A stretch of 64,000 bases of DNA from Populus alba (taxonomy: Eukaryota > Streptophyta > Magnoliopsida > Malpighiales > Salicaceae): the NCBI RefSeq assembly GCF_005239225.2, contig NC_133287.1, positions 12,257,493 through 12,321,492 of the forward strand, written 5' to 3'. Numbering within the stretch: position 1 is the first letter of the stretch; every line of letters begins with the position of its first letter. This document shows positions 2,085 to 56,192 of this stretch, piece by piece. A program made the position numbers and the translations under genes. The notes below the pieces were generated by a model, which was not told the DNA's origin, searched no databases, and saw nothing but the letters and a program-made list of their open reading frames with translations.

Positions 2085-2840
2085 TGATGCGAACCTCGTG
2101 ATCACGTGGTCACGCAACCCACACACACAGACACCAATTCCCGGAAAGCCAAGTAAATCAGGTTTGATAGGAGTGTGACACAAAGATAACTTGTACCTAG
2201 GCACCAGCACTATTGGAAACGTAAACCCCCACCCAACGAATATTGATTCGCGAACGAGAAGTATAAGGATGACGCCACGAAGCCAGTTGTTCTTCGATAA
2301 GTTGTTTTCAGTTCTTTAGAGAACCAAGGAAGGGAGATTATCCCACCAACACACAACAATTGCAGCAAAAAAGTTTATTGATATGAAAATTGCGTAACCT
2401 TACATGTTTGTTTATGCCTCTATTTATACTGACTCTAGACTTAAAGAAACCCTAATGGACCCCCCTTAGGTGGACTTATATGAAGCCCACTTACAATTGA
2501 CCCAAATAAGTAATAATAACCCAAAAACTAAGAAGAAAATAATAAAAATAATAAAAATCCGAGAATTACCATCCTAAATATGCTAGAATTAAATTTGTGT
2601 TGCTGCCCCCTTTCCTTTGATGTCCTTGATTAGCTTGGATAAATTTCCTCCTTTGTTGCTGATTTAATTACTTTCCTTCATATGTTAGGAAAAGCATTAA
2701 ATAGTCCTCCCCTCTTTAGGAATAAGATATGGCCAACTTCCTTACTTAATTAGGAGAATAATAAGTTGTTGGCTTTTTATCCTTGTAGCATTAGGAAACA
2801 AAACAAACCTAACAAGGTTGGTATTGGGCTGGACATATCA
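2085..2840 (-). repeat. 3' LTR of element C
   Basis: Read on the minus strand this 756-bp LTR begins TGATATGTCC and ends GAGGTTCGCATCA, with TG...CA termini. Its first three bases on the element strand are TGA and serve as the pol stop codon. The purine-rich stretch GGAACAAGGGG just upstream is the candidate PPT and lies inside coding sequence. Confidence 0.82.
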
Positions 2841-4718
2841 ACCCCTTGTTCCACATGAATTGGGCTCTTCTTGGACCTGAACTAGATGAATTAAAGGCTG
2901 TCCTTCATGCTCCTTAAATGTCCCAAACCCTTCTAGGTCCATCTTGCTCCATAAGTTCTGAACAAGCCCATTCAATGCTTCTCTAAGCTTCTTTGCCCTC
3001 GCTCTTGTGATTGGCCCAATTGGCACCTCCAATGGATCGTTGGCATGATTACGCTTAGTGTTGGGCTGATCCGCATCATCCCCTCTCGCTTCAAAAGGAT
3101 TCGACCTCGAATCATTGCCTACATCAAACAAAGTAAGATCAGAAACATTAAAGGTAGCACTAACAGCATACTCACCTGGCAAATCAACTTTATAGGCATT
3201 GTCATTGATCCTCTCAAGGATCTGAAATGGCCCATCTCCTCGTGGTTGTAGCTTTGATTTCCTATGGGCTGGAAATCTCTCCTTGCGCATATGCACCCAA
3301 ACCCAATCGCCGGGCTGAAAGACAACATGTTTGCGCCCCTTATTGGCTTTGGTCGCATACACACGATTCCTCTTTTCAATCTGTTGCCGCACACTCTCAT
3401 GGAGTGTTTTCACCACCTGTGCTTTACGATTACCATCCAAACTAACCCTTTCATCAACAGGGAAAGGAATCAAATCCATTGGAGTTAAAGGGTTAAATCC
3501 ATACACAATTTCAAATGGTGAAAATTCAGTAGTAGAGTGCACACTACGATTATATGCAAACTCTATAAATGGCAAACAATCTTCCCAATTCTTTAAGTTC
3601 TTTTGAATGACAGCGCGCAGAAGTTGTGTTAAGGTCCTATTAACTACTTCAGTTTGTCCATCTGTTTGGGGGTGACAAGTAGTTGAAAACAACAGTTTAG
3701 TACCCAATTTTCCCCATAACACTTTCCAAAAATAGCTAAGGAACTTAACATCTGTATCAGAAACAATGCTCTTAGGGACCCCGTGAAGTCGTACTATCTC
3801 CCTAAAGAACAAATCAGCAATGTTAGTGGCATCATCGGTTTTATGACATGGAATAAAGTGTGCCATCTTTGAAAACCTATCAACAACTACAAAGATTGAA
3901 TCCCTACCCCGTTTTGACCTAGGTAAACCTAAGATGAAATCCATTGAAATGTCTACCCATGGTTCCTTAGGTACAGGCAAAGTGGTATACAAGCCATGTG
4001 GTTGAGTCCTGACTTTGTTTTCCTACAAGTTATGCATTTATCACATATGCGCTGCACATCTTTTTTCATTTTAGGCCAAAACAAATGCTCATGCAACACA
4101 TCCAAAGTCTTAACAACACCAAAATGCCCCATCAACCCGCCCCCATGTGCTTGACGTACAAGCAATTCACGCATAGAACTTAATGGAACACATAATCGAC
4201 TCTCTTTAAACAAATATCCATCAAGTCTATAAAACTTCCCAAAAGTCGACGTTTCGCAAGCATTGTAAACATTAGCAAAATCACTATCATCCCTGTACAA
4301 TTCTTTTGTGTGTTCAAATCCTAGAAATCTAGCATCCAAAGTTGATAAAAGAACATACATGCACGAAAGTGCATCAGCTACAATGTTTTCCTTTCCTTGC
4401 TTATACTTGATCACATACGGAAAGGTTTCAATAAATTCCACCCATTTTGCCATTTAGGGTAATTCAAAGCTGCCCCATTAAGTTTTTCGCTGAAATACGC
4501 AATGGGCCTTTTATCCTGAATTAACACAGCTCCTATACCAATACCTGACGCATCACATTCAACTTCAAAAGCTCTCGTAAAGTCAGGCAAAGCTAAAACA
4601 GGTGCCGAACAAAGTTCATCTTTCAACAAATTAAAAGCCTTATCTTGTTCATCATTCCATTTGAATCCAACAGACTTTTTAACAATTTCAGTTAAAGGTG
4701 CAGCAATAGTACTAAAAT
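2838..4718 (-). pseudogene. Gypsy pol remnant: RNase H and integrase
   Basis: Read from 4718 downward there is the end of RT with the start of RNase H ([14 protein letters not shown] near 4560), then a deletion that removes the middle of RNase H and shifts frame near 4440. The integrase HHCC zinc region follows ([11 protein letters not shown], then ICDKCITC). After a frameshift near 3975 comes the integrase core with all three acidic residues in context: SMDFILGL, VSDTDVKF and GQTEVVNR. The C-terminal end carries [20 protein letters not shown] and a late basic motif, GPITRARAKKLREAL. I see no classical chromodomain. The late basic motif resembles that of CRM-like elements, but this clade assignment is an inference. 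The gene is dead because of the frameshifts and the missing RT. Confidence 0.9.
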
Positions 4719-5664
4719 TGATGCGAACCTCGTGATCACGTGGTCACGCAACCCCACATCAAGATTGAGATCTGATCCCGGAAAGCCGAAACAGGTCTGA
4801 TAGGAGTGCGACACAATGGAAACCTGCCCCAAGGCACCAACACTATTGGAATGAGTAGAATGACGCCACGAAGCCAGTTAATCTTCGATAAGTCAGATTC
4901 AGTTCGTTCAAGAACTGAAGAATGCAAGAATCACTCTCACACGTTAAAACTGAAAAGTTCAGAATAATAATCATCAAAGCTGCCAAAATTGTGGCTTACA
5001 TGAGTTTAAATAGTTCTTGAAAAGTTAACCCTAATGGACCCCTTATGTGGACTTATATGAGGTCCACTCAAAACTAGCCCAAAACCCTAAACTGAAAAGC
5101 CCATAACCTGATCCAAACAAGCCTTGGACCCTAGCTCAAAGCAAAGTTTTAATTAAGCCCAAACATTAAAGAAAATAATAAAAATAAGTGACTTGTCATT
5201 AAATACCACCAGCCCTTCTTTCCTTGTGTAGCTAGGATGAATAAGGAATCCTTATAAGAAAAGGATTCTGAAACATTAATGAATCCTTGCCACACTAGGA
5301 GATTATATTGCAACTCATTAAAGATCCTTGTGGAACTAGGAAATTCCCAAAACCAGCTCCCACATCCTTGGAGGAAAAGAATCCTAATCAAATAGGAAGT
5401 CCACAAGTCAAATGGAAGTAAATAACAAAATCCGTACAGCCTCTGTTGACCAGTATTGGGGTGCCTTACGGAACTCCGATTGACCTGCAATTTTAACCCC
5501 AAGGTAGTAAGATATGTCTGGAGAGTCCACATAAAATATTAGCCCGATCCAACGGTCGGATTGAGAATTATGAACTGTTGCCGTAAAACCTGGATTGTTG
5601 CGCTTTTACGCCAAAATCCGAATCTGACCTTACTTGGGTCGTATCACAGGGCTGAACCGTATCA
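4719..5664 (-). repeat. LTR of element E1 (3' LTR)
   Basis: This 946-bp LTR begins TGATACGGTTCAGCCC on the minus strand and ends GGTTCGCATCA. It differs from the LTR at 9782 only by a few bases, mostly indels. The left flank AAAAT belongs to element C; no matching duplication exists at the truncated right end of the tandem. Confidence 0.9.
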
Positions 5665-5678
5665 TTCCCTCCCTCTTC
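5665..5678 (-). other. Polypurine tract of E1
   Basis: On the minus strand GAAGAGGGAGGGAA abuts the 3' LTR. The same tract borders LTRs at 10726, 45170, 46140 and 51704. Its codons also encode the pol-like tail EEGGN, so it doubles as the end of a reading frame. Confidence 0.8.
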
Positions 5679-5757
5679 AAGAAGATTCGCCCTCGAATCT
5701 TGATTAGCATTAATGGTGACTTCAGTAGCCTCTTGTTTAAGCCTTCGGAATCCCCTT

Positions 5758-7312
5758 GTTTAATGGTGACTTCTTATCTCGTCCAGACTAAAGGCTGTTA
5801 ATTGTAAGGGCCTCGTGGATCGAATTACCGCCAAAGTTCGACATTGGACCTGTAGAACACTCTCTTTCGCAGGGCGAGTACAACTGATTAACTCAGTCTT
5901 ATTCTCCATCCAGGTCTATTGGGCATCTCTATTCCTATTACCTGGGGAAGTAGTGAAAATGTTGAGCAAATTATGAGATCCTTTCTTTTGGTCAGGTTCA
6001 GATATGAGCACTACCAGGGCTAAAGTGGCTTGGGATCAGGTATGTCTTCCAAAAAAGGAGGGGGGGCTAGGCATAAAAAGGATAGCAGAATGGAACAAGA
6101 TTGCCTTGTTGAAACATATTTGGAACTTGTGCAATGACTCAGACGGCTCAATCTGGTCTACTTGGATCAGATCCAATCTCTTGCGAGGTAGGAATTTCTG
6201 GACAATCAAGGCGCCAGGAAGCTGCTCTTGGGCTTGGGGAAAGATTCTAAAGCTCAGATCCTTAGCATGGCTGAAGATGAAGCACGTCATCGGAGATGGA
6301 ATGACAACTCTCTATGGTTGACAATTGGCATCCTCACAGCCCGCTCGCTGATACCTACGGTGAACGTTTCATCTATGATTCAGGTATGGAACACAACGCG
6401 AGAGTGAACGTGCTGATTAATAACTTAGAATGGAGAATTCCTATCACTCATGCTATTGGCTGGCACCCCATTTTAGAAGCTATTCCTTCCACCTCTACTC
6501 CTAAGGGGCAAAAGGATGAGATTGTTTGGTTGGATTCGCCAAATCAGAGTTTCTCAGTCAAAGTAGCTTGGGAACAACTAAGAATTCATCATCAAATGGT
6601 TGATTGGCATGACATCGTGTGGTTCAAGAATGCTGTCCCAAGACATGCATTCTTTCTTTGGGTGGCTATCCAACGGAAACTCTCAACGCAGGATAGACTT
6701 CATCGGTTTGGTATTCATGGTCCCAATAGGTGCTCACTCTGTCTCTGCAATAATGAAGATCACAACCACTTGTTCTTGAATGCTCCTTTGCGAAAGCATT
6801 ATGGTGGAATGTTTGTGATAGATGCGACATTCCAAGAATGACAAAAAGCTTGGATGAATGGATTCGATTGGCCACTGTCTCTTGGCATGGAAAAAGTTTC
6901 GTCAACTTTTCTCGTAAACTGGGTTTCGCAGCTACAGTGTATTGTATCTGGCAAGAACGGAATGCAAGGATCTTTGCAGATGTGTCTAAAGCTTCGAATT
7001 TGGTTTTTGATCAAATCGAATGTATCATTCGCGATAAGCTTGTTTTGATAAGGAATGTTCAACAAACAGATGAAAACATAAGGATCCAAAGACTTTGGAG
7101 GGTCAATAACATGGACTCTTAATTTGATGTTTAGCTGGTTGTTTTTGTACCCCTAGCATATCTAGTTGGTCCAAGTTTTTGTTTTGTTGTGGCTAGCCTG
7201 TAGCCATTTGTTGGTTTTCGTTTCTGTCCTCATTGTAAATCTTGGGTATGCCCATTATATTCTTTGTATCATTTTCTTTTAATACATAAGTCAGCTTACC
7301 AAAAAAAAAAAA
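5758..7312 (+). mobile_element. 5'-truncated LINE copy L1
   Basis: LINE sequence starts at about 5772, late in the ORF2 RT region, and runs to a poly(A) at 7301-7312. The target duplication GAATCCCCTT is at 5748-5757 and 7313-7322. Bases 5758-5771 are filler; together with the next bases they repeat taatggtgacttc found 50 bp upstream at 5711-5723. ORF2 pieces read as 6004-6321 and 6314-6841, covering the post-RT and zf-RVT-like part (RCSLCLCNNEDHNHLF), with frameshifts near 6315 and 6778. L1 keeps a 7-G run near 6060, where the full-length copies have 6 G and lose frame. Confidence 0.92.
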
Positions 7313-7593
7313 GAATCCCCTTATTGCTAACACCTTTCTCCAACAACACTGTATAGAAGTAGTGACTGACAAGAATTTCAAATAAGCACGCCGCACTAAC
7401 CACTTGCGTACATACTTTTCAATGATAACCACAGCGACTCTCCTTCGTCTTTCATCCTTTTGGCGTTGTACCTCTTTTTCCCATGAAGCTTCAAGATCAT
7501 AGAATAATCTTCTACACTTGTCAACTTCTCGTTCTAGAACCCCCAAACCATGGCTTAGTATTTCGCATCGTTGATCTACAATCCTCCTCTGTT

Positions 7594-7920
7594 TTTTTTT
7601 TTTGGTAAGCTGACTTATGTATTAAAAGAAAATGATACAAAGAATATAATGGGCATACCCAAGATTTACAATGAGGACAGAAACGAAAACCAACAAATGG
7701 CTACAGGCTAGCCACAACAAAACAAAAACTTGGACCAACTAGATATGCTAGGGGTACAAAAACAACCAGCTAAACATCAAATTAAGAGTCCATGTTATTG
7801 ACCCTCCAAAGTCTTTGGATCCTTATGTTTTCATCTGTTTGTTGAACATTCCTCATCAAAACAAGCTTATCACGAATGATACATTCGATTTGATCAAAAA
7901 CCAAATTCGAAGCTTTAGAC
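7594..7920 (-). mobile_element. 5'-truncated LINE copy L2
   Basis: The minus-strand insertion holds the last part of ORF2 and the 3' UTR, ending at the T-run 7594-7603 followed by GGTAAGCTGAC. The target duplication ACAATCCTCCTCTGTT is at 7578-7593 and 7921-7936, which fixes the ends. It interrupts the IQ fragment of E1. Confidence 0.92.
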
Positions 7921-8138
7921 ACAATCCTCCTCTGTTCCCTCTCCCTTAGTGAATACATGACACAGATAGGGGAAAAAAACAAGAAGACGACGACAAGAAT
8001 AGAGTTTTATAGCATGAAGAACATTGATTTAGACTCGAGAATACAAATCTGACTTTTGTTTGGACCAGAACTTATCGAAAAACAAACTAATGCGAGGGTG
8101 ATGAAAATGACTCAAAAAACAGCCAAATATCAAAATAT

Positions 8139-8943
8139 ATATATTTTTTTTTTGGTAAGCTGACTTATGTATTAAAAGAAAATGATACAAAGAATATAAT
8201 GGGCATACCCAAGATTTACAATGAGGACAGAAACGAAAACCAACAAATGGCTACAGGCTAGCCACAACAAAACAAAAACTTGGACCAACTAGATATGCTA
8301 GGGGTACAAAAACAACCAGCTAAACATCAAATTAAGAGTCCATGTTATTGACCCTCCAAAGTCTTTGGATCCTTATGTTTTCATCTGTTTGTTGAACATT
8401 CCTCATCAAAACAAGCTTATCGCGAATGATACATTCGATTTGATCAAAAACCAAATTCGAAGCTTTAGACACATCTGCAAAGATCCTTGCATTCCGTTCT
8501 TGCCAGATACAATACACTGTAGCTGCGAAACCCAGTTTACGAGAAAAGTTGACGAAAACTTTTTTCCATGCCAAGAGACAGTGGCCAATCGAAATCCATT
8601 CATCCAAGCTTTTTGTCATTCTTGGAATGTTGCATCTATCACAAACATTCCACCATAATGCTTTCGCAAAGGAGCATTCGAAGAACAAGTGGTTGTGATC
8701 TTCATTATTGCAGAGACAGAGTGAGCACCTATTGGGACCATGAATACCAAATCGATGAAGTCTATCCTGCGTTGAGAGTTTCCGTTGGATATCCACCCAA
8801 AGAAGAAATGCATGTCTTGGGACAGCATTCTTGAACCACACGATGTCATGCCAATCAACCATTTGATGATGAATTCTTAAGTTTTCCCAAGCTACTTTGA
8901 CTGAGAAACTCTGATTTGGCGAATCCAACCAAACAATCTCCCT
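8139..8943 (-). mobile_element. 5'-truncated LINE copy L3
   Basis: This minus-strand insertion carries about the last 600 bp of ORF2 (8332-8928, zf-RVT-like region with CSLCLCNNEDHNHLF) and the 3' UTR. The target duplication ATATCAAAATAT is at 8127-8138 and 8944-8955. The 198-codon tail is open in this copy, but without EN and RT it is only a relic. Confidence 0.9.
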
Positions 8944-8955
8944 ATATCAAAATAT

Positions 8956-9767
8956 CAAAATATGATGATAGTATAATGGCAGGAACGAAATCAACAGAAA
9001 CAAAACAAGTTTTAAAAGATAACACCAAACAGACCCGTTACGACAAAACAAGACCTAATTCGGGAAACCTAAAGAAACCGATATCCAAATGACCTCGAAT
9101 TTAATTTGTATTATTACAATACTATGAAATCACCAAAAATCAATTTATAGGTCGTTCTCTTATTTCTAGGTACCCAAACTACTTGTATGATCAGTTTGCG
9201 GCAGAATTGATCCTCCAATTAAAACCTCCAGAAGCCGGAATCAAAATATGCCCAAATTTAATATATGGTGCAATCGCATACCCAATACTCAGAATATGAA
9301 GTTTCAATAGATTCCAAGGTGTTTTACCTAGGGTTCACTAAGAGTAGTGTTTTTGCGGCAGAATTGAAACTCGAATTTAAAACCTCAAGCAAATAATATC
9401 AGAATAAGCCCAACTTTGATATATCATGCGATCCCACCCCCAATAGACTGAATATGAAGTTTAAATAGATTCCGAGGTGCTTTGCTTATGGTTCACCAAA
9501 GATTTGTGTTTTTGCGGCAAAAATTGAATGATCCTTCAAATTTCAACTAATCACTCTTTTCTCTATTTCTTTCTGATTTTTTTTTCTTTTTAACAAACTG
9601 ATATGATTAGAGACAGTAACAAGATGAAAACATAAACTTTTTTTTTTTTTTGCTTAGATGACACAGACACGAAAAACAAGAAGGTGGATGCAAACACTGA
9701 AAAACTTAAGGGACACTAAAAAAAAAAACGAAAATAACAGAATGATATGACCTTGTTTCGGAGCCTA
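8956..9767 (-). other. Untranslated leader of E1
   Basis: This is non-coding leader between PBS and the IQ fragment; a further piece lies at 7991-8138. It closely matches the E2 leader (11136-12093) and the first part of the A2 leader at 28762, including phrases such as ggtgaaccataagcaaa on the minus strand. No ORF is supported. Confidence 0.8.
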
Positions 9768-9779
9768 GCTCGGATACCA
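9768..9779 (-). promoter_or_regulatory. Primer binding site of E1
   Basis: On the minus strand TGGTATCCGAGC lies two bases inside the LTR end. It matches the initiator-Met tRNA PBS TGGTATCAGAGC except for A to C at position 8. E2 and E4 carry the same change. Confidence 0.85.
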
Positions 9780-9781
9780 AG

Positions 9782-10725
9782 TGATGCGAACCTCGTGATC
9801 ACGTGGTCACGCAACCCACAATCAAGATTGAGATCTGATCCCGGAAAGCCGAAACAGGTCTGATAGGAGTGCGACACAATGGAAACCTGCCCCAAGGCAC
9901 CAACACTATTGGAATGAGTAGAATGACGCCACGAAGCCAGTTAATCTTCGATAAGTCAGATTCAGTTCGTTCAAGAACTGAAGAATGCAAGAATCACTCT
10001 CACACGTTAAAACTGAAAAGTTCAGAATAATAATCATCAAAGCTGCCAAAATTGTGGCTTACATGAGTTTAAATAGTTCTTGAAAAGTTAACCCTAATGG
10101 ACCCCTTATGTGGACTTATATGAGGTCCACTCAAAACTAGCCCAAAACCCTAAACTGAAAAGCCCATAACCTGATCCAAACAAGCCTTGGACCCTAGCTC
10201 AAAGCAAAGTTTTAATTAAGCCCAAACATTAAAGAAAATAATAAAAATAAGTGACTTGTCATTAAATACCACCAGCCCTTCTTTCCTTGTGTAGCTAGGA
10301 TGAATAAGGAATCCTTATAAGAAAAGGATTCTGAAACATTAATGAATCCTTGCCACACTAGGAGATTATATTGCAACTCATTAAAGATCCTTGTGGAACT
10401 AGGAAATTCCCAAAACCAGCTCCCACATCCTTGGAGGAAAAGAATCCTAATCAAATAGGAAGTCCACAAGTCAAATGGAAGTAAATAACAAAATCCGTAC
10501 AGCCTCTGTTGACCAGTATTGGGGTGCCTTACGGAACTCCGATTGACCTGCAATTTTAACCCAAGGTAGTAAGATATGTCTGGAGAGTCCACATAAAATA
10601 TTAGCCCGATCCAACGGTCGGATTGAGAATTATGACTGTTGCCGTAAACCTGGATTGTTGCGCTTTTTACGCCAAAATCCGAATCTGACCTTACTTGGGT
10701 CGTATCACAGGGCTGAACCGTATCA
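9782..10725 (-). repeat. Shared LTR between E1 and E2
   Basis: This 944-bp LTR is the 5' LTR of E1 (PBS at its low side) and also the 3' LTR of E2 (PPT at 10726-10739). A single LTR serving two interiors is direct evidence for the tandem arrangement. Confidence 0.92.
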
Positions 10726-11135
10726 TTCCCTCCCTCTTCAAGAAGATTCGCCCTCGAATCTTGATTAGCATTAATGGTGACTTCAGTAGCCTCTTGTTTA
10801 AGCCTTCGGAATCCCCTTATTGCTAACACCTTTCTCCAACAACACTGTATAGAAGTAGTGACTGACAAGAATTTCAAATAAGCACGCCGCACTAACCACT
10901 TGCGTACATACTTTTCAATGATAACCACAGCGACTCTCCTTCGTCTTTCATCCTTTTGGCGTTGTACCTCTTTTTCCCATGAAGCTTCAAGATCATAGAA
11001 TAATCTTCTACACTTGTCAACTTCTCGTTCTAGAACCCCCAAACCATGGCTTAGTATTTCGCATCGTTGATCTACAATCCTCCTCTGTTCCCTCTCCCTT
11101 AGTGAATACATGACACAGATAGGGGAAAAAAACAA
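10212..11135 (-). CDS. Chimeric ORF of E2: IQ-motif fragment, pol tail and LTR
   Basis: This uninterrupted 307-codon ORF has three parts. Residues 1 to about 115 look like a captured host gene: an N-terminal charged segment (LEREVDKCRRLFYDLEASW, then a basic run) and two IQ-like calmodulin or myosin-light-chain binding motifs, VVIIEKYVRKWLVRR and SIQCCWRKVLAIRGF, followed by RRLKQEATEV. The spacing and the RRLKQEA tail resemble the last two IQ motifs of plant class XI myosins; this assignment is from memory. Residues of about 119-133 (NQDSRANLLEEGGND) resemble the end of gypsy pol and contain the PPT. The rest is translated LTR. There is no intron, so capture from spliced RNA is plausible. 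An ATG in GTCATG (11111, residue 9) is an alternative start. I cannot tell whether any protein is made. Confidence 0.6.
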   Translation of the reverse strand: MFFSPICVMYSLREREQRRIVDQRCEILSHGLGVLEREVDKCRRLFYDLEASWEKEVQRQKDERRRRVAVVIIEKYVRKWLVRRAYLKFLSVTTSIQCCWRKVLAIRGFRRLKQEATEVTINANQDSRANLLEEGGNDTVQPCDTTQVRSDSDFGVKSATIQVYGNSHNSQSDRWIGLIFYVDSPDISYYLGLKLQVNRSSVRHPNTGQQRLYGFCYLLPFDLWTSYLIRILFLQGCGSWFWEFPSSTRIFNELQYNLLVWQGFINVSESFSYKDSLFILATQGKKGWWYLMTSHLFLLFSLMFGLN

Positions 11136-12093
11136 GAAGATGACGACAAGAATAGAGTTTTATAGCATGAAGAACATTGATTTAGACTCGAGAATACAAA
11201 TCTGACTTTTGTTTGGACCAGAACTTATCGAAAAACAAACTAATGCGAGGGTGATGAAAATGACTCAAACAACAGCCAAATATCAAAATATGATGATAGT
11301 ATAATGGCAGGAACGAAATCAACAGAAACAAAACAAGTTTTAAAAGATAACACCAAACAGACCCGTTACGACAAAACAAGACCTAATTCGGGAAACCTAA
11401 AGAAACCGATATCCAAATGACCTCGAATTTAATTTGTATTATTACAATACTATGAAATCACCAAAAATAAATTTATAGGTCGTTCTCTTATTTCTAGGTA
11501 CCCAAACTACTTGTATGATCAGTTTGCGGCAGAATTGATCCTCCAATTAAAACCTCCAGAAGCCGGAATCAAAATATGCCCAAATTTAATATATGGTGCA
11601 ATCGCATACCCAATACTCAGAATATGAAGTTTCAATAGATTCCAAGGTGTTTTACCTAGGGTTCACTAAGAGTAGTGTTTTGCGGCAGAATTGAAACTCG
11701 AATTAAAACCTCAAGCAAATAATATCAGAATAAGCCCAACTTTGATATATCATGCGATCCCACCCCCAATAGACTGAATATGAAGTTTAAATAGATTCCG
11801 AGGTGCTTTGCTTATGGTTCACCAAGATTTGTGTTTTTGCGGCAAAAATTGAATGATCCTTCAAATTTCAACTAATCACTCTTTTCTCTATTTCTTTCTG
11901 ATTTTTTTTTTCTTTTTAACAAACTGATATGATTAGAGACAGTAACAAGATGAAACATAAACTTTTTTTTTTTTTTTTGCTTAGATGACACAGACACGAA
12001 AAACAAGAAGGTGGATGCAAACACTGAAAAACTTAAGGGACACTAAAAAAAAAACGAAAATAACAGAATGATATGACCTTGTTTCGGAGCCTA
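11136..12093 (-). other. Leader of E2
   Basis: This is about 0.96 kb of non-coding leader between PBS and the IQ fragment, with T-rich runs and no supported ORF. It is colinear with the leader of E1, and its PBS-proximal part is colinear with element A2 (28762 onward). Confidence 0.8.
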
Positions 12094-12105
12094 GCTCGGA
12101 TACCA
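12094..12105 (-). promoter_or_regulatory. Primer binding site of E2
   Basis: TGGTATCCGAGC on the minus strand, two bases from the LTR at 12108. It is one mismatch from the initiator-Met PBS and identical to the E1 and E4 sites. Confidence 0.85.
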
Positions 12106-12107
12106 AG

Positions 12108-12266
12108 TGATGCGAACCTCGTGATCACGTGGTCACGCAACCCACAATCAAGATTGAGATCTGATCCCGGAAAGCCGAAACAGGTCTGATAGGAGTGCGA
12201 CACAATGGAAACCTGCCCCAAGGCACCAACACTATTGGAATGAGTAGAATGACGCCACGAAGCCAG
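12108..12266 (-). repeat. Truncated 5' LTR of E2
   Basis: Only the last 159 bp of the LTR (element sense) remain, ending ...TTCGCATCA at the PBS side. The sequence breaks at 12266 into shuffled fragments, so the outer end and any TSD are lost. Confidence 0.88.
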
Positions 12267-12640
12267 CTTGGGTCTGATATGACTCTCCAGACATATCTTA
12301 CTACCTTGGGTTAAAATTGCAACAATCCAGGTTTACGGCAACAGTCATAATTCTCAATCCGACCGTTGGATCGAGCTAATATCATTAAAAGAAAATGATA
12401 CAAAGAATATAATGGGCATACCCAAGATTTACAATGAGGATGATTCATTATATTGAAAGTCGGATTCATTAATGTTTCAGAATCCTTTTCTTATAAGGAT
12501 TCCTTATTCATCCTAGCTACACAAGGAAAGAAGGGCTGGTGGTATTTAATGACAAGTCACTTATTTTTATTATTTTCTTTAATGTTTGGGCTTAATTAAA
12601 ACTTTGTTTTGAGCTAGGGTCCAGGGCTTGTTTGAATGTT
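12267..12640. repeat. Shuffled patchwork of LTR-A and LINE pieces
   Basis: In order: a plus-strand LTR piece around 12280-12325 (actctccagacatatctt), a plus-strand LTR piece 12326-12383 that lies upstream of the first in a normal LTR, a minus-strand LINE 3' UTR piece 12384-12440 without poly(T), and a plus-strand LTR piece about 12465-12636. The fragments are out of order and in mixed orientation, as in filler created during break repair. Confidence 0.8.
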
Positions 12641-24406: not shown

Positions 24407-24559
24407 ATGGCTGGAGATAAAGAAGATTTGCCAAGAGGGTTAAGTTTGGAACAGGCACAAATCATGGGCTTACAACGATCTCATGCTGAGATTCGGGATG
24501 AGATGACTGGAATTCGTGAACAGTTGAATACCCTTATGCAAAAGGATGCAAAGAAATAA
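24407..24559 (+). pseudogene. Gag N-terminus of element B copy 1 (frameshifted)
   Basis: ATG 24407 starts MAGDKEDLPRGLSLEQAQ. The frame also reads upstream to 24275 without a better start. One extra A in the run near 24542 (gcaaaagg against gcaaagg in copy 2) shifts frame and ends the ORF at 24559. The next ORF (24546-27635) picks up the rest of Gag with a 14-bp overlap. In copy 2 (minus, 33882) the two parts are continuous, so this is a point defect, an assembly error, or less likely a programmed shift. Confidence 0.85.
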
Positions 24560-27500
24560 TTTGCAACCCCAACCGAGGCAAGCACTTAGGGTGCCACGAA
24601 ATGATATTATAGAAGCTGACGAAGATCCAGATGGGGATGACGAGGCTGATGATAGGGTCAGACCAAGAAGGCAGAATTATAATCCTCCTAATGGTCTCAA
24701 ACTTAAAATTCCACCGTTTAGAGGAAGTAGTTCACCTGAGGAATACTTGGAGTGGATTCAGAAGGTTGAAAAGGTGTTTGAATGGTACGAATATTCTGAA
24801 GAAAGGAAGTGCAAGGTGGCAGCACTTGAGTTTACAGATTATGCTCTTTTATGGTGGGAAAACGTAAAGATTCAGAGGAGAAGGGAAGGAGAGGAGGAGA
24901 TTGCAACATGGGCAACTATGAAAAGAGTGATGAAGAAGAGATTTGTTCCTGATTACTATAAACAGGAGCTATACATCAGACTTCAGACTTTGCGACAGGG
25001 ATCTTTGACTGTGGAAGAGTATGTGAAAGAGTTTGAATTGCTGCTGATTCGATGTGAATTGATGGAACCTCAAGAGCAAACAATAGCTAGATTTCTTGGA
25101 GGGTTGAGAAAGGATATAGCTAATGTTGTTGAGTTACAACCGTACATCTTCCTTGAGGAAGTTATAAAGCTTGCAACCCGAGTAGAGAGGCAGCAGAGAC
25201 GAGGAGGTGTCCGAACTAGTGTAACTACGTCAAGTGCGACAAGGGCTGTTTCTACGCCTACACGAACATGGAGCACACCTAAACGAGATGAGAAGGTGGA
25301 GTTTAGCAAGGGGAATACCAGTTCTGATTCTTTGAAGGGAAAGGAGAAAGTGACAGAACCTCAACATCCTAGGAGGTCTCGAGACATCAAGTGCTTGGGA
25401 CATGGGCATATTGCTTCGGAATGTCCATATAAAAGGGTGATGATTTTGCATGGGGATCATGGAGAGCTGATCAGTGGAGATGAGGTTGAAACTGAAGACG
25501 AAGATGAGGTACAAGTGGCTGAACAAGAAGAGGATTTCGAACCAGTGAAGGGAGATTTGTTGGTTGTTCAACGGGTTCTGAATGCACAAATTGACGTTAG
25601 TGATGAGCAACGCGAGAACATCTTTCATACTCGATGTCAGATTCGAGATAAGGTGTGCGGGATGATCATTGATAATGGAAGTTGCACTAATGTTGCGTCA
25701 ACTACCTTGGTGGAGAAATTGGGTTTAAATACCCTTCCACATCCCAGACCCTATAGTTTGCGATGGCTGAATGAGAATGGGGAGATTCGGGTGACAAAGC
25801 AAGTTCGTGTACCTTTTTCCATTAAAACCTATCACGACGAGGTTTTATGTGACGTTGCACCAATGTCAGCTAGCCATTTGTTGTTGGGTCGTCCATGGCA
25901 GTTTGATAATGATGTGACCTACAATGGACGGAAGAACACTTATTCTTTTATGCTGAATGGAAAGAAGGTGAACTTGTTACCACTGAGTTCTCAACAAGTT
26001 AGAGAGGATCAGTTACGAAGCCAACAAAAGGAGGTGACATCACGAAAGGGGCTGTTGTTAGCCAAAAAAGGAGACATCAAACAAGCATTAGCCACAACAG
26101 GGATTGTTTTCATGGTCTGGGCAAAGCAACTACTACAAGTAGAAGGATTGGACTTACCAAGACAGATTAAGGAATTACTTGAAGAATTTAAAGATGAATT
26201 ACCTAAAAGATTACCACCTATTCGTGGTATTGAGCATCAAATTGATTTGGTGTCGGGAGCTTCACTTCCTAATAGACCAGCATACAGATGTAATCCAGAG
26301 GAAGCGAAAGAGATTCAAAGGCAGGTCGGTGAGCTCTTAGAGAAGGGCTATGTGCGAGAATCACTTAGTCCATGTTCCGTACCTACTTTGCTTGTTCCGA
26401 AGAAAGATGGTACCATGAGGATGTGCATGGACAGCCGTGCTATCAACAAAATAACAGTTAAGTATCGATTTCCTATATCCAGACTTGATGATTTGCTTGA
26501 TGAGTTGCATGGTGCTGTATTGTTTTCTAAAGTCGATTTTCAAAATCGTACTTGGATTACCAAAACACAACGTGGGAAGGATTCAATAATGGTGGTGGTT
26601 GATCGATTCTCCAAAATGTCCCATTTCATTCCTTGTATGAAAACTGACGATGCAGTACATGTTGCTGATTTGTTCTTTCAAGAGATTGTTCGTTTGCATG
26701 GAATTCCTAAAAGCATTGTCTCTGATCCTGATACAAAGTTCTTAAGCCACTTTTGGAAGACTCTTTGGAGGAAACATGGAACAAAGTTACTTTTCAGTAC
26801 GGCATGTCATCCACAAACTGAGGTAGTAAACCGAACTTTATCTTCTTTGTTACGAGCTGTTATACATAAGAATTTGAAGAGTTCGGATACTTGTTTGCCG
26901 ATTGTGGAGTTTGCATATAATCATAGTGTGCATGGGGCTACAAAATTTTCACCATTCGAGGTTGTCTATGGCTTTAATCCTTGTGTTCCTATTGATCTTG
27001 TTCATATTCCAATTGATGAGAGGACATCTATGGATGGAATTAGAAAGGCAGAATTGATGAAGAAACTACATGAGCAGGTTCGACTACATATTGAGGAGAA
27101 AACAACAAAGTATGCTAAACAAGCTAACAAGGGGCGAAAGATGGTCAGGTTTGAACCTGGAGATCTTGTTTGGATTCATATTAGCAAGGGCAGATTTCCA
27201 AGCAAACGTAAGTCCAAGTTGATGCCAAGAAGAGCTGACGGTCCATTTCGTATTATAGAGAAGGTGAATGACAATGCGTATAAGGTAGATCTTCCTGGTG
27301 ATTACAACGTATCAGCTACTTTTAATGTGAAAGACTTATCTCCGTACTTGGATGATGATGACGATTCTGATTTGAGGACAAATCATTTTCAACCCGGGGC
27401 TGATGATGTGCATCATGGGAATTATAATCCATCTCGTAAAGCTGAATCTAATATGCAAGAGGATTCAGATGGTCCAATGACAAGAGCGAGAGCGAAACAA

Positions 27501-27635
27501 CTACAACGGGCCTTGACGAATCAAATTGCAATGATTGAAGCTGCGTCGGAGTTAAAAATTAGCAATCAGTTTGAAATTGGTTCAAGGGTACTTATTTGCC
27601 TACAATTGGAACTTGGAGATGGGAAAAGCCCTTAA
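24546..27635 (+). CDS. Gag-Pol polyprotein of element B with internal deletion
   Basis: A 1029-codon ORF lacking only the Gag N-terminus. In order: capsid region (residues about 55-200; [16 protein letters not shown]); a damaged zinc knuckle near residue 280 where the first half of CX2CX4HX4C is lost ([12 protein letters not shown]; copy 2 has [14 protein letters not shown]); protease near 373 with IIDNGSC in place of the usual DSG/DGG; and RT start at 562-662 ([23 protein letters not shown]). At FSKVDF the frame jumps into integrase ([15 protein letters not shown]). The YMDD box, RNase H, HHCC and the first catalytic Asp of integrase are missing; SDPDTKF and TEVVNR remain. The C-terminus has [19 protein letters not shown] and the basic motif [15 protein letters not shown], and the last 76 residues are encoded by the 3' LTR. 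Confidence 0.9.
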
Positions 27636-28345: not shown

Positions 28346-28747
28346 TTGTTTGGATTAAGTTATGGGCTTGTTAGATTAGGGTTTTGGGCTAGTTTTGAGT
28401 GGACCTCATATAAGTCCACATATGGGGTCCATTAGGGTTAATTCTTCAGGAATTATTTAAACCCATGTAAGCCAAAATTTCGGCAGCTTTGATGAATATT
28501 ATTCTGAATTTTTCAGTTTTAATGTGTGAGAGTGATTCTTGCATTCTTCAGTTCTTGAACGAACTGAATCTGACTTATCCAAGATTAACTAGCTTCGTGG
28601 CGTCATTCTACTCATTCCAATAGTGTTGGTGCCTTGGGGCAGGTTTCCATTGTGTCACACTCTTATCAGACCTCTTTCGGCTTTCCAGGATTAGATCTCA
28701 ATCTTGATTGTGGGTTGCATGACCATGTGATCATGAGGTTCACATTA
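28346..28747 (+). repeat. Right part of A2 5' LTR
   Basis: Continues the LTR from TTGTTTGGATTAAG to TTCACATTA, restoring the order seen in the LTR at 36813-37551. The final TCA is changed to TTA. Confidence 0.88.
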
Positions 28748-28749
28748 GT

Positions 28750-28761
28750 TGGTATCAGAGC
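28750..28761 (+). promoter_or_regulatory. Primer binding site of A2 copy 1
   Basis: TGGTATCAGAGC, two bases after the LTR, is a perfect initiator-Met type site, unlike the one-mismatch site in the E elements. Confidence 0.9.
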
Positions 28762-29732
28762 TAGGCTTCGAATCAAGGTCATATCATTCTATTATTTTAA
28801 TTTTTTTTAGTCTTTAGTGTTCCCTTAAGTTTTTCAGTATTCGCGTCCATCTTCTTGTTCTTCGAGTCTGCATCATCTAATAAAAAAAAAAATTATATTT
28901 TATTTGGTTACTGTCTCTAATCATATCAGTTTATTAAAAAGCAAAAAAAGAAGAAAGAAATAGAGAAAAGAGTGATTAGTTGAAATTTGAAGGATTATTC
29001 AATTTTTGTCGCAAAAACACAAATCTTGGTGAACCATAAGCAAACCACCTCAGAATCAATTTAAACTTCATATTCAGTCTATCGGAGGGTGGGATCAAAT
29101 CTTATATCAAAGTTGGGCTTATTCTGATATTATTTGCTTGAGGTTTTAATTCGAGTTTCAATTCTGCCGCAGAAACACTACTCTTAGTGAACCCTAGGTA
29201 AAACACCTTAGAATCTATTGAAACTTCATATTTTGAGTACTGGGTATGCAATAGCACCCCATATTAAATTTGGGATTATTTTGATATCGGTTTCTGGAGG
29301 TTTTAATTGGAGGTTCAATTCTGCTTACATTTGTCTGAATCTTTTTATTTCTATTATATTTGGGTTATCTAGGAGTCAAGTAATTGTTTTCGCTAATATT
29401 CACTTTTTTTTTATTTTGTGTCTTCGTTTCGTCCACAATTCGCACAAATTTGCATTGCTACTCGCAAAATCATAATCATAGTTTCGTTTTGCTTTGTTTT
29501 AGTATATTTTTTTTATTCTTGAGTTTGAAAATTATAATTAGAGTGCGCTGCGAAAGCTACTGACTTTGATTTGTTGATTTCAGTTCCTAAAGAACAAAAA
29601 AAAAAGCAAGTTGTGAGGTAAAAGGCGTAGAGAGCTTAATAGAGTGAAAAGCCTTGATTTTTGTTTTGTGTGATACATGAGAGGTGTGAGGATATATTTT
29701 GTGCAACTAACGAAATTTTGCAAATTCAAAGA
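28762..29732 (+). other. Leader of A2 copy 1
   Basis: About 0.97 kb of AT-rich, T-run-rich DNA between PBS and gag. The first part matches the E leaders. An 85-codon ORF at 29218 is broken in other copies and is not counted as a gene. Confidence 0.8.
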
Positions 29733-30830
29733 ATGTCTGAAAACAACGAATCAACGACACAAAACACTGACATAGCTTTCCAATTGCGATCCATAGGCCA
29801 GCAACTTGAGCTGTTGTCTAGGACATACAAGGATCTGAAAGAGATGGAGATAGCAATGATTCAGGCTAATGTTGTTGAGGATAGAGAAGCCACCATGGCT
29901 AGATTTCTTAATGGATTGAATCGAGACATTGCTAATGTGGTGGAGCTACAGCACTATGTGGAGCTAGAGGACATGGTTCACATGGCGATGAAGATGGAGA
30001 GACAACTTAGGAAGGGGCATGCTTGGCCAGCATTTAATTCGGGTTCATCATCATCTTGGAAGTCGAATCTAAAGAGAGAGAGGGTACTGTCCGCCCAAGA
30101 TCCTTTGGTCCTTCTAGAACTGAACCACCAAAGGGTAAAGTTGATGTCCCTACTGATGCCAAAGATAAATCTAAAACACAACCTAAACGTACTCGTGATG
30201 TTAAATGTTTCAGGTGTCACGAACATGGACATTATGCTTCAGAGTGTTTAAACAAGAGAATCATGATGATTAGAGATAATGGTGATGTGAAATCTGAAAG
30301 TGACAGTTCTGATTGTGAAGGCATGCCACCATTGGAGGATAGTGATGGGGATGAGTTAGCATTACTGGTTGAGGAGTCCTTAATTATAAGGCGAACACTT
30401 CAAGTTCAGGTCAAAGAAGATGATACTAATGAACAAAGGGAGAACATCTTCCATACGCGTTGTTATGTACAAAGCAAGGTGTGTGGTTTAATTATAGATA
30501 GTGGAAGCTGTGTTAATGTTTGTAGTGCCACCCTTGTTAGTAAACTCAATTTGTGTACTGCTAAGCATGCTAAACCATATAGATTGCAATGGCTGAATGA
30601 TAGTGATGAAGTGAAAGTGACTAAACAGGTTGTGGTTCTATTTTTTATTGGGAAATATGTTGATGAAGTTCTGGGCGACGTGATACCAATGCAAGCAAGT
30701 CACATCTTGTTGGGGAGAGACCATGGCAATATGATAGGAAGACAATTCATGGTGGGGTTGAAAATAGATATACTATTGTAAAAGATGGTAAAACCATCAC
30801 TCTTGTACCTCTTACAGCCAAACAGGTGTA
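29733..30830 (+). pseudogene. Gag-protease remnant of A2 copy 1
   Basis: ATG 29733 begins MSENNESTTQNTDIAFQL, as in the fuller copy at 56031. About 0.6 kb is missing in frame: TYKDLK is joined directly to EMEIAMI, which removes the capsid core present at 55310-55930. A frameshift in the GAGA run near 30075 moves the rest into the 30056-30781 frame. That frame has the knuckle CFRCHEHGHYASEC and a protease motif IIDSGSCVNVCSATLV, then ends after LLGRDHGN by a further shift. Deletion and two frameshifts make it non-functional. Confidence 0.88.
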
Positions 30831-42580: not shown

Positions 42581-42814
42581 AACAAAACGAGCAGTGATGC
42601 GAACCTCGATATCACGTGGTCACGCAACCCACAATCAAGATTGAGATCTGATCCCGGAAAGCCGAAAGAGGTCTGATATGAGTGCGACACAATGGAAACC
42701 TGCCCCAAGGCACCAACACTATTGGAATGAGTAGAATGACGCCACAAAGCCAGTTAATCTTCGATAAGTCAGATTCAGTTCGTTCAAGAACTGAAAGAAT
42801 GCAAGAATCACTCT

Positions 42815-43477
42815 GTCTCTTTTTTTTCAATTTATGCAGGATAGCTTCATCGTTTGGTATTCATTGTCCCAAATAGGTGCTCACTCGTGTCTCTGCAATA
42901 ATGAAGATCACAACCACTTGTTCCTCGAAATTGCTCCTTTGCGAAAGCATTATGTGGAATGTTGTGATAAGATTGCGACATTCCAGAATGAGAAAAAGCT
43001 TGGATGAATGGATTCGATTGGCCACTACTTCTCTCTTGGCATGGAAAAAGTTTCGTCAACTTTCTTTTCGTAAACTGGTTTCACAGCTACAGTGTAATTG
43101 TATATGGCAAGAACGGAATGCAAGGATCTTTGCAAGATGTGTCTAAAACTTTCGAATTTTGGTTTTTTGATCAAATCGAATGTATCATTCGCAGATAAGC
43201 TTGTTTTGATGAGGAATGTTCAACAACAGATGAAAACATAAGGATTTCAAAGACTTTGGAGGGTCAATAACATGGACTCTTAATTTGATGTTTAGCTGGT
43301 GTTTTTGTACCCCTAGCAATATCTGTTGGTCCAAGTTTTTGTTTTGTTTGTGGCTAGCCTTGTAGCCATTTCGTTGGTTTTCGTTTCTGTCCTCATTTGT
43401 AAATCTTTGGGTATTGCCATTATATTCTTTGTATGTCATTTTTCTTTTAATACATAAGTCAGCTTACCAAAAAAAAA
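42815..43477 (+). mobile_element. 5'-truncated LINE copy L6
   Basis: Holds the last part of ORF2 and the 3' UTR with poly(A) near 43470. The 18-bp target duplication GAATGCAAGAATCACTCT is at 42797-42814 and 43478-43495. About 20 bp of filler with a T-run (42815-42834) precedes the LINE part. ORF2 is broken by many indels. Confidence 0.9.
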
Positions 43478-44289
43478 GAATGCAAGAATCACTCTCTCAC
43501 ACGTTAAAAACTGAAAAATTCAGAATAATAATCAATCAAAAAGCTGCCGAAATTGTGGCTTTACATGAGCTTTAAATAGTTCTTTGAAAAGTTAACCCTA
43601 ATGGAGCCCTTTTATGTGGACTTTATATGAGGTCCACTAAAAAATTGGCCCCAAAACCCTAAACTGGAAAAGCCCATAACCTGATCCAAACAAGCCTTGG
43701 ACGCCTAGCTCAAAACAAATTTTTAATCAAGCCCAAAACATTAAAGAAAATAATAAAAATAACTAATCTGTCATTAAATACCACCAGCCCTTCTTTCCTT
43801 GTGTAGCTAGGATGAATAAGGAATCCTTATAAGAAAAGGATTCTGAAACATTAATGAATCACTGCCAACTTGTAGATTATATTGCAGCTCATTAAAGATC
43901 CTTGTGGAACTAGGAAATTCCAAAGCCAGCTGCCACATCCTGTAGGAAAAAGAATCCTAACCAAATAGGAAGTCCACAAGTCAAATTGGAAGTAAATAAC
44001 AAAATCCGTACAGCCCCTCCGTTGACCAGTATTGCGGTTCCTTCCCGAACTCCGATTGAACCTGATATTTTTAAACCTAAGGCAGTAAGATATGTCTGGA
44101 GAGTCCACAATGAAATATATTATCCCCGATACAACGGTCAGATTTGAGAATTATGATTGTTTCCGTAAACCTGGACTGTTGTGCTTTTTACGCCAAAATC
44201 CGAATCTGACCTTACTTGGGTCGTATCACATGGCTGAACCATATCATTCCCCTCTTCAAGAAGATTCTCCCTCCGAATCTTGAATACGA

Positions 44290-44640
44290 TTAATAGTGAC
44301 TGCAAGTAGCCTCTTGTTTAAGCCTTCAGAATCCCCTTCTTGCTAAAACCTTTCTCCACAATACTGTATAGAAGTAGTGACTGACAAGAATTTCAAATAA
44401 GCACGCCGTACTTACCACTTGCATACATACTAAGAATTATAGCCACAGCGACTCTCCTTCGTCTTTCATCCTTTTGGCGTTGTACCTCTTTTTCCCATGA
44501 AGCTTGAAGATCACAGACTAATCTTCTACACTTATCAACTTGTCGTTCTAGAACCCCCAAACCATTGCTTAGTTTTTCACATCTTTGATCTACAATCCTT
44601 CTCCGTTTCCCTCTCCCTTAGTGAATACATGACAGAGATA
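44290..44640 (-). pseudogene. IQ-motif fragment in E3
   Basis: Nucleotide match to the E2 IQ fragment, including the start context (tgaatacatgacagagatagg on the plus strand), but the first IQ motif is altered (VAIILSMYAS in place of VVIIEKYVRK) and several indels break the frame. This is a decayed copy. Confidence 0.7.
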
Positions 44641-45165
44641 GGGAAAAAAAACAAGACAGACGAAAAAAATAGAGCTTATAACTGGAAGAACACTGATTTA
44701 GATTCGAGATTACGAATCTGACTTTTGTTTGGACCAGAACTTTACCGGGGAAAAAGAAAAAAAAACAAATGCGAAACTGATGAAAAGGACTCAAACAACA
44801 GCCAAGTATAATGGCAGGAACGAAATCAATAGAAACAAAACAAGTTTTGAAAGATAACACCAAACAGACCCGTTACGACAAAACAAGACCCAATTGAGGA
44901 ACCTAAAGAAAACCGATATCCAAATGACCTCGAATTTAATATCTAGTATTAAAATACTATTAAAACACCAAAACTAAATTATAGGTTCGTTCTCGATTAT
45001 TTCTAGGTACCCAAACTCCTTGTATGATCAGTTTGCGGCAGAATTGAACCTCCAATTAAAACCTCCAGAAGACGATATCAAAAATAAGCCCAAAATTTAA
45101 TATATGGTGCTATCTCATCCCCAATACACAAAATATGAAGTTTCAATTGATTCTAAGGTGGTTTT
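44641..45165 (-). other. Leader remnant of E3
   Basis: Matches E2 11140-11640 with indels. No gene. It ends at 45165 where an inverted LTR and its PPT start. Confidence 0.75.
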
Positions 45166-50687: not shown

Positions 50688-51703
50688 TGATGCGAACCTT
50701 CGTGATCACGTGGTCACGCAACCCACAATCAAGATTGAGAATCTGATCCCGGAAAGCCGAAACAGGTCTGATAGGAGTGCGACCACAATGGAAACCTGCC
50801 CAAGGCACCAACACTATTGGAATGAGTAGAGTCTGTGAATGAGCCGCCAACGAAGCCAGGTTAATCTTCGATAAGTCAGATTCAGTTCGTTTTGTTTCAA
50901 GAACTGAAGAATGCAAGAAATCACTCTCACACGTTAAAAACTGAAAAGTTCATAATAATAATCATCCAAAGCTGCCGAAATTGTGGCTTACATGAGTTTA
51001 AATAGTTCTTTGAAAAGTTAACCTAATGGACCCCTTATGTGGACTTATATGAGGTCCACTCAAAACTGGCCCAAAACCCTAAACTGAAAAAGCCCATAAT
51101 CGTGATCCAAACAAGCCTTTCCGGGACCCTAGCTCAAAACAAAGTTTTTTAATTAAGCCCAAACATTAAAGAAAATAAATAAAAATAAGTGACTTGTCAT
51201 TAAATACCACCAGCCCTTCTTTTCCTTGTGTAGCTAGGATATAAGAGAATCCTTATAAGAAAGGATTCTGAAACATTAATGAATCCTTGCCACACTAGGA
51301 GATTATATTTGCACCTCATTTAAAGATTCCTTGTGGAACTAGGAAATTCCCAAACCAGCTCCCACATCCTTGAGGAAAAAGAATCCTAATCAAATAGGAA
51401 GTCCACAAGTCAAATGAAGTAAATAACAAAATCCATAACAGCCATCTGTTGACAGTATTTGGGGCTTTTAGCCTTACCGAACCGAACTTCTCGCTTGACC
51501 TGCAATTTTAACCAAGGTAGTAAAAATATGTCTGGAGAGTCCACATAAAATATTAGCCCGATCAACGGTCGGATTGTCGAGAATTATGACTGTTGCCAGC
51601 ATATGGCTTTCTAACCTGGATGTTTGCGCTTTTCTACGAATTTTTCCAAAATCCATGAATCTGACCTTACTTGGGTCGTATCAACAGGGCTGAAACTGTA
51701 TCA
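50688..51703 (-). repeat. 3' LTR of the recombinant block (E4)
   Basis: Family-A LTR of 1016 bp, longer than the usual 944 because of many scattered one- to ten-base insertions (for example near 50830 and 51600). Such noise is absent from the matching LTR at 62776-63719 of the same block. Confidence 0.88.
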
Positions 51704-52130
51704 TTCCCTCCCTCTTCAAGAAGATTCGCCACTCGAATCTTGAATAGCCAATTAATGGTGGGACTTCAGTAGCCCTCTTGTTTTAAGCCTTCAGAATCCC
51801 CTTATTGGCTAACACCTTTCCTCCAAACAAACACTGTATAGAAGTAGTGACTTGACAAGAATTTCAAATAAGCACGCCGTACTAACCACTTGCGTACATA
51901 CTTTTGAATGATAACCACAGCGACTCTCCTTCTTCTTTCATCCTTTTTGGCGTTGTACCTCTTTTTCCCATGAAGCTTCAAGATCATAGAATAATCTCTA
52001 CACTTGTCAAACTTCTCGTTCTAGAACCCCCAAACCATGGCTTAGTATTTCGCATCGTTGATCTACAATCCTCCTCTGTTCCCTCTCCCTTAGTGAATAC
52101 ATGACACAGATAGGGAAAAAACAAGAAGAC
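51704..52130 (-). pseudogene. IQ-motif fragment in E4
   Basis: PPT, pol tail and IQ fragment as in E2, with indels. The first IQ motif reads VVIIQKYVRKWLVRR, with the canonical Gln, whereas E1 and E2 have Glu. The second motif is frameshifted. This copy may retain the ancestral residue. Confidence 0.75.
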
Positions 52131-53328: not shown

Positions 53329-53340
53329 GCTCGGATACCA
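53329..53340 (-). promoter_or_regulatory. Primer binding site of E4
   Basis: TGGTATCCGAGC on the minus strand, the same one-mismatch site as E1 and E2, two bases from the LTR fragment at 53343. Confidence 0.85.
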
Positions 53341-53342
53341 AC

Positions 53343-53557
53343 TGATGCGAACCTCGTGATCACGTGGTCACGCAACCCACAATCAAGATTGAGATCTGAT
53401 CCCGGAAAGCCGAAACAGGTCTGATAGGAGTGCGACACAATGGAAACCTGCCCCAAGGCACCAACACTATTGGAATGAGTAGAATGATGCCACGAAGCCA
53501 GTTAATCTTCGATAAGTCAGATTCAGTTCGTTCAAGAACTGAAGAATGCAAGAATCA
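53343..53557 (-). repeat. Internal LTR fragment
   Basis: The last 215 bp (element sense) of a family-A LTR. At 53557/53558 it joins A2 pol codons directly (gaatcact then tttagagaaaatacag). This is the boundary between the E4 and A2 interiors. Confidence 0.9.
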
Positions 53558-56031: not shown

Positions 56032-56192
56032 TCTTTGAATTTGCAAAATTTGGTCAGTAGCACAAATATATCCTCACACCTCTCGTGTATCACACAAACA
56101 AAAATGAAGGCTTTTGATAGAGAGAGACAGAACGAAGGATAGAGAGAGAGAGAGGTTAGAGAGAGGTTAGAGAGGAAAGATTCAAAGGGGCG

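Follow-up and report, generated by a model that had tools for sequence, protein, structure and literature searches.

Our analysis of a 64-kb window of Populus alba DNA (the window being the whole stretch that was analysed) makes it very probable that the element at positions 9782-12266 belongs to a non-autonomous LTR retrotransposon family of the Ty3/Gypsy type, most likely a family of Populus. That is, an ancestor from the A family would have lost gag and nearly all of pol, gained a cassette with a piece of host myosin XI-I, and moved in trans, with the chimeric open reading frame (ORF) of the cassette being mainly a passenger. The original prediction of an LTR retrotransposon family carrying a host IQ fragment, captured once and then propagated, is supported by the anatomy of the element, by its matches to myosin XI-I and by 101 relatives outside the window.

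Structure of the E elements in the window

The minus strand is the sense strand of the element at 9782-12266, which we call E2. The positions of its parts and of the other copies are listed in Table 1. The A-type LTR, PBS, A-like leader and PPT that had been predicted could all be located on this strand. E2 thus has the marks of an LTR retrotransposon, namely direct LTRs bounded by TG and CA, a PBS by the 5' LTR, and a PPT by the 3' LTR, and its anatomy is established. The PBS is presumably of the initiator-Met type. The tandem repeat pair of the leader lies at 11523-11853 and is present in A-type leaders too.

Table 1. Features of E2 and of the other IQ-bearing copies in the window
Feature	Position	Strand	Remarks
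Complete LTR, TG..CA	9782-10725	minus	doubles as 3' LTR of E2 and 5' LTR of E1 (tandem)
PPT GAAGAGGGAGGGAA	10726-10739	minus	directly abuts the LTR; from sequence
Last pol codons (DSRANLLEEGG)	10726-10760	minus	retained up to and through the PPT
Chimeric ORF	10212-11111	minus	ATG at 11111, stop at 10212 inside the LTR; 299 codons
Myosin XI-I IQ6 and tail start	10782-10859	minus	residues ~85-110 of the ORF
Myosin XI-I IQ3	10860-10937	minus	residues ~59-84 of the ORF
58 codons without recognised donor	10938-11111	minus	helical, charged; residues 1-58
E-specific 5' non-coding part of cassette	11112-11391	minus	common to IQ copies; without match in the A-type leaders of the window
A-type leader	11392-12105	minus	contains a 175-base repeat twice (79%)
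PBS TGGTATCCGAGC..	12088-12105	minus	read from 12105 downward; 2 bases off the LTR end
5' LTR remnant of E2	12108-12266	minus	159 bases; inverted LTR pieces beyond
E2 IQ-bearing match	10728-11300	minus	reported copy
E1 IQ-bearing match	5667-5760, 7313-7593, 7921-8138	minus	99-100% identical to E2, interrupted
E1 3' LTR	4719-5664	minus	99.3% identical to 9782-10727
E1 internal region	5665-9781	minus	E cassette, split by three LINE-type insertions
E3	42595-45164	minus	LTR pieces 42595-42814 and 43476-44248; cassette 44250-45164 (87-88%); frame broken
E4	50688-53559	minus	LTR 50688-51705; cassette and leader 51706-52943 (93-95%) and 53140-53341; 5' LTR remnant 53343-53559

E2, at 9782-12266, is incomplete, because it carries one full LTR and only a short piece of the 5' LTR. 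Two full LTRs are found in the neighbouring E1 alone; these are 99.3% identical to each other, and one of them is common with E2. Beside the truncated 5' LTR of E2, inverted LTR pieces at 12281-12637 represent a local rearrangement.

No pol ORF of at least 150 amino acids was found within 10212-12266, and hence the order RT-RH-INT is absent from the element itself. The only grounds for the Ty3/Gypsy assignment, which is accordingly a putative one, are the homology of the pol end and the LTR and leader common to the A elements. As to the pol end, 43 of 51 bases at 10760-10710, a stretch that runs into the first LTR bases, are identical to those at 3113-3063, where the pol of a different element in the window ends, both read on the minus strand, while the peptide matched weakly in tblastn (E 0.32). 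This result agrees with the predicted replacement of gag-pol and fusion to the last pol codons, but only about 12 pol codons are left before the LTR in E2. In the related element, whose pol ORF lies at 2838-4022, the frame stays open for about 75 codons beyond the point that matches the PPT and LTR start of E.

The LTR and leader of the E elements are 89-93% identical to two A-type loci in the window. After an A-type LTR and leader at 28346-29324 comes a gag ORF (from 29658 onward), and the Pfam domains Retrotrans_gag and zf-CCHC occur in another ORF of this gag type, at 54403-56073; the A partner is thus present in the window as fragments only. Since E2 possesses no gag-pol and shares its LTR and leader with a coding family, it can be classified as non-autonomous. 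A tblastn search of the chimeric ORF against the window gave no relation to gag. As candidate sources of the 5' part of the cassette we tried 29301-29800, which is the start of the A-type gag, and 56001-56600, and rejected both, as only short matches were obtained (best E 0.048). The window also contains a second gag-pol family at 24528-27635, in which gag, integrase and SH3_Tf2-1 lie in one frame and no reverse transcriptase was detected by Pfam at E 0.001.

The IQ cassette was found at all four of the predicted copies, E1, E2, E3 and E4, with an open frame only in E2. The internal region of E2 (10728-12107) is repeated at 5667-9781 (E1), 44250-45164 (E3) and 51706-53341 (E4). The three LINE-type insertions in E1, at 5761-7312, 7594-7920 and 8139-8949, are each accompanied by a 10-16 base duplication of element sequence (GAATCCCCTT at 5761/7313 by an A run, ACAATCCTCCTCTGTT at 7594/7921 by a T run, and ATATCAAAATAT at 8139/8950). 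The main match of E3 to E2 contains 119 mismatches and 21 one-base insertions, and the ORF part of E3 contains three stop codons produced by substitution. Comparing E4 with E2 over 50688-52943, we counted 41 mismatches, 49 one-base insertions, 13 one-base deletions and 25 longer gaps, and 37 of the 49 one-base insertions copy a neighbouring base. This excess of one-base insertions probably reflects errors of uncorrected (unpolished) long reads, and therefore the broken frame of E4 is poor evidence of decay.

In none of the IQ copies could a target-site duplication be read, and at least one outer end of each is rearranged or truncated. No single transposition event can thus be read from the window, as none of its IQ-bearing copies combines two full, unshared LTRs with a target-site duplication.

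Chimeric reading frame and its myosin donor

The frame of E2 had been predicted to be open for 307 codons. It is indeed open, but its length is 299 codons from ATG to stop and 315 codons from stop to stop. Likewise, the predicted stretch of about 110 codons with two IQ motifs and a myosin tail proved to contain IQ3, IQ6 and the tail start of myosin XI-I, but the myosin-derived part is only about 52 codons long (10782-10937, ORF residues 59-110), and the preceding 58 codons are not recognisably myosin.

The best matches of the ORF in the PDB were to myosin-5A, at the IQ motifs adjoining the tail, with E values of 1.1e-7 for the whole sequence and 2.2e-5 for the best stretch. We then searched 5.8 billion proteins with a query padded to reach full-length proteins, accepting E values up to 10 among 721 candidates. 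Eight proteins were obtained, seven of which were plant myosins with E values of 1.1e-9 to 3.4e-8, from Nicotiana attenuata, Hevea (three proteins), Manihot, Jatropha and Dovyalis caffra. The eighth was an insect protein with an E value of 7.3. Three of the seven plant proteins are named myosin-15 (P0102, P0105 and P0106), three are hypothetical or myosin motor domain-containing proteins, and one is unnamed. We take plant myosin-15 to be subclass XI-I.

P0102 and P0104 have six consecutive IQ motifs, of which numbers three and six are represented in the element; in P0108 the fourth motif is off the pattern. Two separate IQ motifs were matched in their proper order, and so was the start of the tail, (F/L)RRLKQEA(N/T)E. 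The alignments placed the joint of IQ3 with IQ6 at residues 82-86, where 48 residues corresponding to IQ4 and IQ5 are absent. This gap was seen in the local alignments of the window ORF with all seven plant myosins. With six relatives of the ORF and up to three alignments considered per pair, the gap appeared against 7/7 myosins for P0002 and P0010, 6/7 for P0075, 2/7 for P0016 and P0019, and 1/7 for P0003, and the remaining alignments of these six are confined to IQ3 plus IQ4, to IQ5-IQ6, or to IQ6 by itself. The class of the donor is thus established, and the comparison of sequences suggests that the fragment belongs to the IQ region of myosin XI-I as the third and sixth of six motifs. The donor search, carried out on proteins, led to a host gene class and to no known retrotransposon ORF, and the only other relatives found were the family itself.

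No donor was found for residues 1-58 (best E 1.9 with PDB profiles and 0.015 with Pfam). The Pfam match was obtained with only one of seven members and was to an animal protein, and we take it as a chance match. When the P0016 form of the cassette was used to look for full-length donors, three candidates were obtained, none with an E value up to 10. The AlphaFold model of the ORF, built from 19 sequences, is a single helix over residues 4-127 with a mean pLDDT of 90.5 and a pTM of 0.39. Such a predicted helix would be compatible with a lever arm or a coiled coil, but it is unspecific.

Relatives of the chimera and selection on its reading frame

Searching the same 5.8 billion proteins, we obtained 146 candidates, and 101 of them were relatives outside the window with E values up to 0.001, showing 53-98% identity over 24-92% of the query. 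These are clusters at 90% identity, not insertions, and their counts are no copy number. Two of the 101 are labelled Populus, namely P0022 from Populus trichocarpa and P0039 from Populus alba; the latter and the window ORF align over 264 residues, the LTR-coded part among them, with 79.5% identity when a long gap is counted. Among viral contigs and among prokaryote genome contigs, nine pattern matches each were obtained, and none was confirmed as a relative.

Judged by pattern, the IQ3-IQ6 joint is present in 74, the pol junction in 69 and the first part in 50 of the 101 relatives. The span from the start to the pol junction is covered in 13, two of which (P0026 and P0028) are without the IQ6 piece, and precomputed PF00612 annotation is found on 26 of the 101. 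The pol junction is present in every protein of LTR type A (34) and of LTR type B (11), and the two subfamilies agree in start, joints and long ORFs. We also built a tree of 24 ORFs, of whose 21 inner branches only 3 have good support; in it, the eight rows labelled A are separated from the five labelled B with support of 97/97. The common joints and the co-divergence of the ORF with the LTR type are therefore established. Since the ORF tree agrees with the LTR type and the junction occurs in both types, the chimera predates the divergence of the two LTR types.

As the strict IQ consensus we used [FILV]Qxxx[RK]xxxx[RK]. Two retained IQ motifs had been claimed, but the window copy fits this consensus at neither site: Glu replaces Gln in IQ3, and IQ6 lacks the last basic residue. 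Its Pfam IQ score, 17.3 bits, is below the cut-off of 20.3. In 21 long relatives, strict IQ3 occurs seven times and strict IQ6 not at all, and the last basic residue of IQ6 is isoleucine in 47 of 50 cores. This loss argues against a maintained canonical calmodulin site, while looser binding is compatible with it. Codon 102 (10806-10808) is CGA in E2 and a stop in E3 and E4, and among the 50 cores examined it encodes R, W or Q; four of the 101 relatives end exactly after LAIREF, presumably at a stop. This codon is perhaps a recurrent hot spot for stops, for which cytosine methylation may be the cause.

Comparing E2 with E3 over 115 codons, we found 18 nonsynonymous changes at 269 sites and eight synonymous changes at 76 sites (dN 0.070, dS 0.113), so that this check shows no constraint in close copies. 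The changes amounted to 17/171 in the IQ part, 14/151 in the leader, 32/367 in the 5' cassette, 40/744 in the LTR and 11/174 in the first part, meaning that the IQ part changes like the leader and 5' cassette and more than the LTR, and the first part somewhat less. Between E2 and E4 there are three nonsynonymous and two synonymous changes, one of which produces a stop. The suggested decoy or calmodulin-binding product thus gains no support, because the IQ consensus is lost and close copies are without constraint.

Among the relatives, we formed 612 pairs from the 50 of 101 proteins whose core is uninterrupted, which biases the sample towards intact copies. The IQ core showed greater similarity than the LTR-coded part in 554 of these pairs, but on average less in the two bins of closest pairs (33 pairs), where the distance ratios were 1.37 and 1.54. 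A wider comparison of 64 proteins gave a more similar IQ side in 776 of 995 pairs, with frame-shifted ends mixed in. The majority strings of LTR types A (n=34) and B (n=11) differ at 8 of 102 ORF columns, consisting of 5/52 in the first part and 3/50 in the IQ part, versus 29 of the 92 columns coded by the LTR (Fisher P 3.7e-5 if the columns are taken as independent), and the LTR difference is somewhat inflated because the groups were set by LTR motifs. When the groups were set by the ORF start, the same LTR split was visible by eye where the tail was long enough. Fast evolution of U3 may be an alternative cause of the LTR divergence, and ORF databases favour open copies. Taken comprehensively, the evidence for selection on the chimeric ORF is mixed: close pairs give no sign of constraint, whereas at greater depth the ORF diverges less than the LTR.

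Origin of the chimera and its significance

We consider that most likely one founding chimera arose and was then propagated and diversified. An A-family ancestor would have been stripped of gag and almost the whole of pol; the cassette it gained would have included part of a host myosin XI-I transcript or gene, with IQ3 joined to IQ6; and this cassette would have been fused in frame to the last pol codons by the PPT. The swap of gag-pol most likely occurred during reverse transcription in a mixed particle, by template switching between A-type RNA and host-derived RNA. The chimera would subsequently have been mobilised in trans by A-type Gag-Pol; because the parts needed in cis (LTR ends, PBS, leader and PPT) are kept, we infer copying by the Gag-Pol of A-type elements. 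Capture at the RNA level, trans-mobilisation and a mainly passenger ORF all belong to this inferred course of events. Transduction and abnormal template switching are both described for plant elements in the portion of the literature source consulted (PMC13317346).

The lower A/B divergence of the ORF than of the LTR-coded frame (8/102 and 29/92) speaks against a pure passenger, and with the shared start, joints and long ORFs of both subfamilies and the one-helix model it is what would be expected if the ORF were selected in replicating lineages. Its benefit to the element could then be, for instance, that of a helical product able to bind calmodulin or some other light chain, or to anchor the particle or RNA to actin or to the nuclear envelope. 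We regard this as unlikely, since in close pairs the change in the IQ core equals or exceeds that in the LTR part, E2 and E3 give a dN of 0.070 against a dS of 0.113 and differ by three substitution stops with the IQ part changing like the leader, strict IQ3 is retained in 7 of 21 long members and strict IQ6 in none, U3 may evolve rapidly, and databases of ORFs are biased to open copies. A somewhat more doubtful form of this idea is a working accessory gene in an element devoid of gag-pol, in which a XI-I lever-arm helix (IQ3 and IQ6) and the new 58-residue helix would be held by selection in replicating lineages and would give the RNA or particle access to myosin XI-I and the nuclear-envelope machinery.

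Two further explanations concern the family and the fragment themselves. The copies could be segmental duplicates from one local rearrangement and not a propagated family, as the 99-100% identical tandem of E1 and E2 and the lack of a target-site duplication of an IQ copy in the window might suggest; but E3 and E4, at 87-88% and 93-95%, have different flanks, and the 101 public relatives fall into two LTR types, so that the family extends beyond one tandem and its duplicates and this explanation is very improbable. Even less credible is a non-myosin origin of the IQ part, in which the element itself would have produced a helical, Arg-rich stretch by chance or convergence. A Pfam IQ score below the cut-off and an unspecific single-helix prediction would be compatible with such a stretch, but one kind of plant myosin is matched at two IQ motifs in the right order and at the tail start, and the best PDB matches are myosin-5A at the same kind of site.

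We call the E family a Bs1-like non-autonomous family, mainly passenger in character and unusual in its spread. As in Bs1-like elements, a host gene fragment lies inside the element in the same sense as the LTR, PBS and PPT. Bs1 of maize is presented as the model for LTR elements with host gene pieces, and in the portion of that source consulted it is likewise an LTR retroelement in which host gene pieces form a new hybrid frame; the E family differs in that its donor is myosin XI-I and that the chimera occurs, by pattern, in 69-74 of 101 clusters and in two LTR subfamilies (PMC13317346). Judging from the same portion, the TRIM with a P450 fragment in Arabidopsis and Rider at the sun locus of tomato are also plant LTR elements bearing a host piece, and the TRIM is small and non-autonomous like E, but it is described as a 3'-transduction, whereas in E the host piece is internal, placed between the leader and the PPT and fused to pol codons (PMC13317346).

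The genes captured by LTR elements in rice and sorghum, so far as the consulted part of the catalogue goes, resemble E in lying inside full-length elements, with some duplicated along with them; that catalogue is defined by position in a full-length element, whereas for E the donor, joints and family spread were traced (PMC3726574). Additional ORFs between pol and the 3' LTR of plant elements are similar in being extra ORFs by the 3' LTR in many copies, but the antisense ORFs treated in the part consulted accompany gag-pol and are without similar genes outside elements, whereas the E ORF is in sense, has a host donor and replaces gag-pol (PMC7264820). No publication on an E-type element was found in the titles and abstract openings of the literature searched.

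The E family is thus intermediate, in that its host piece is transduced and yet family-wide. A captured pair of domains with a diagnostic internal deletion has persisted through at least one split of the family, into two LTR types. Having come through this split, the pair is a natural test case for asking whether selection can begin to act on a coding fragment that a non-autonomous element has captured.
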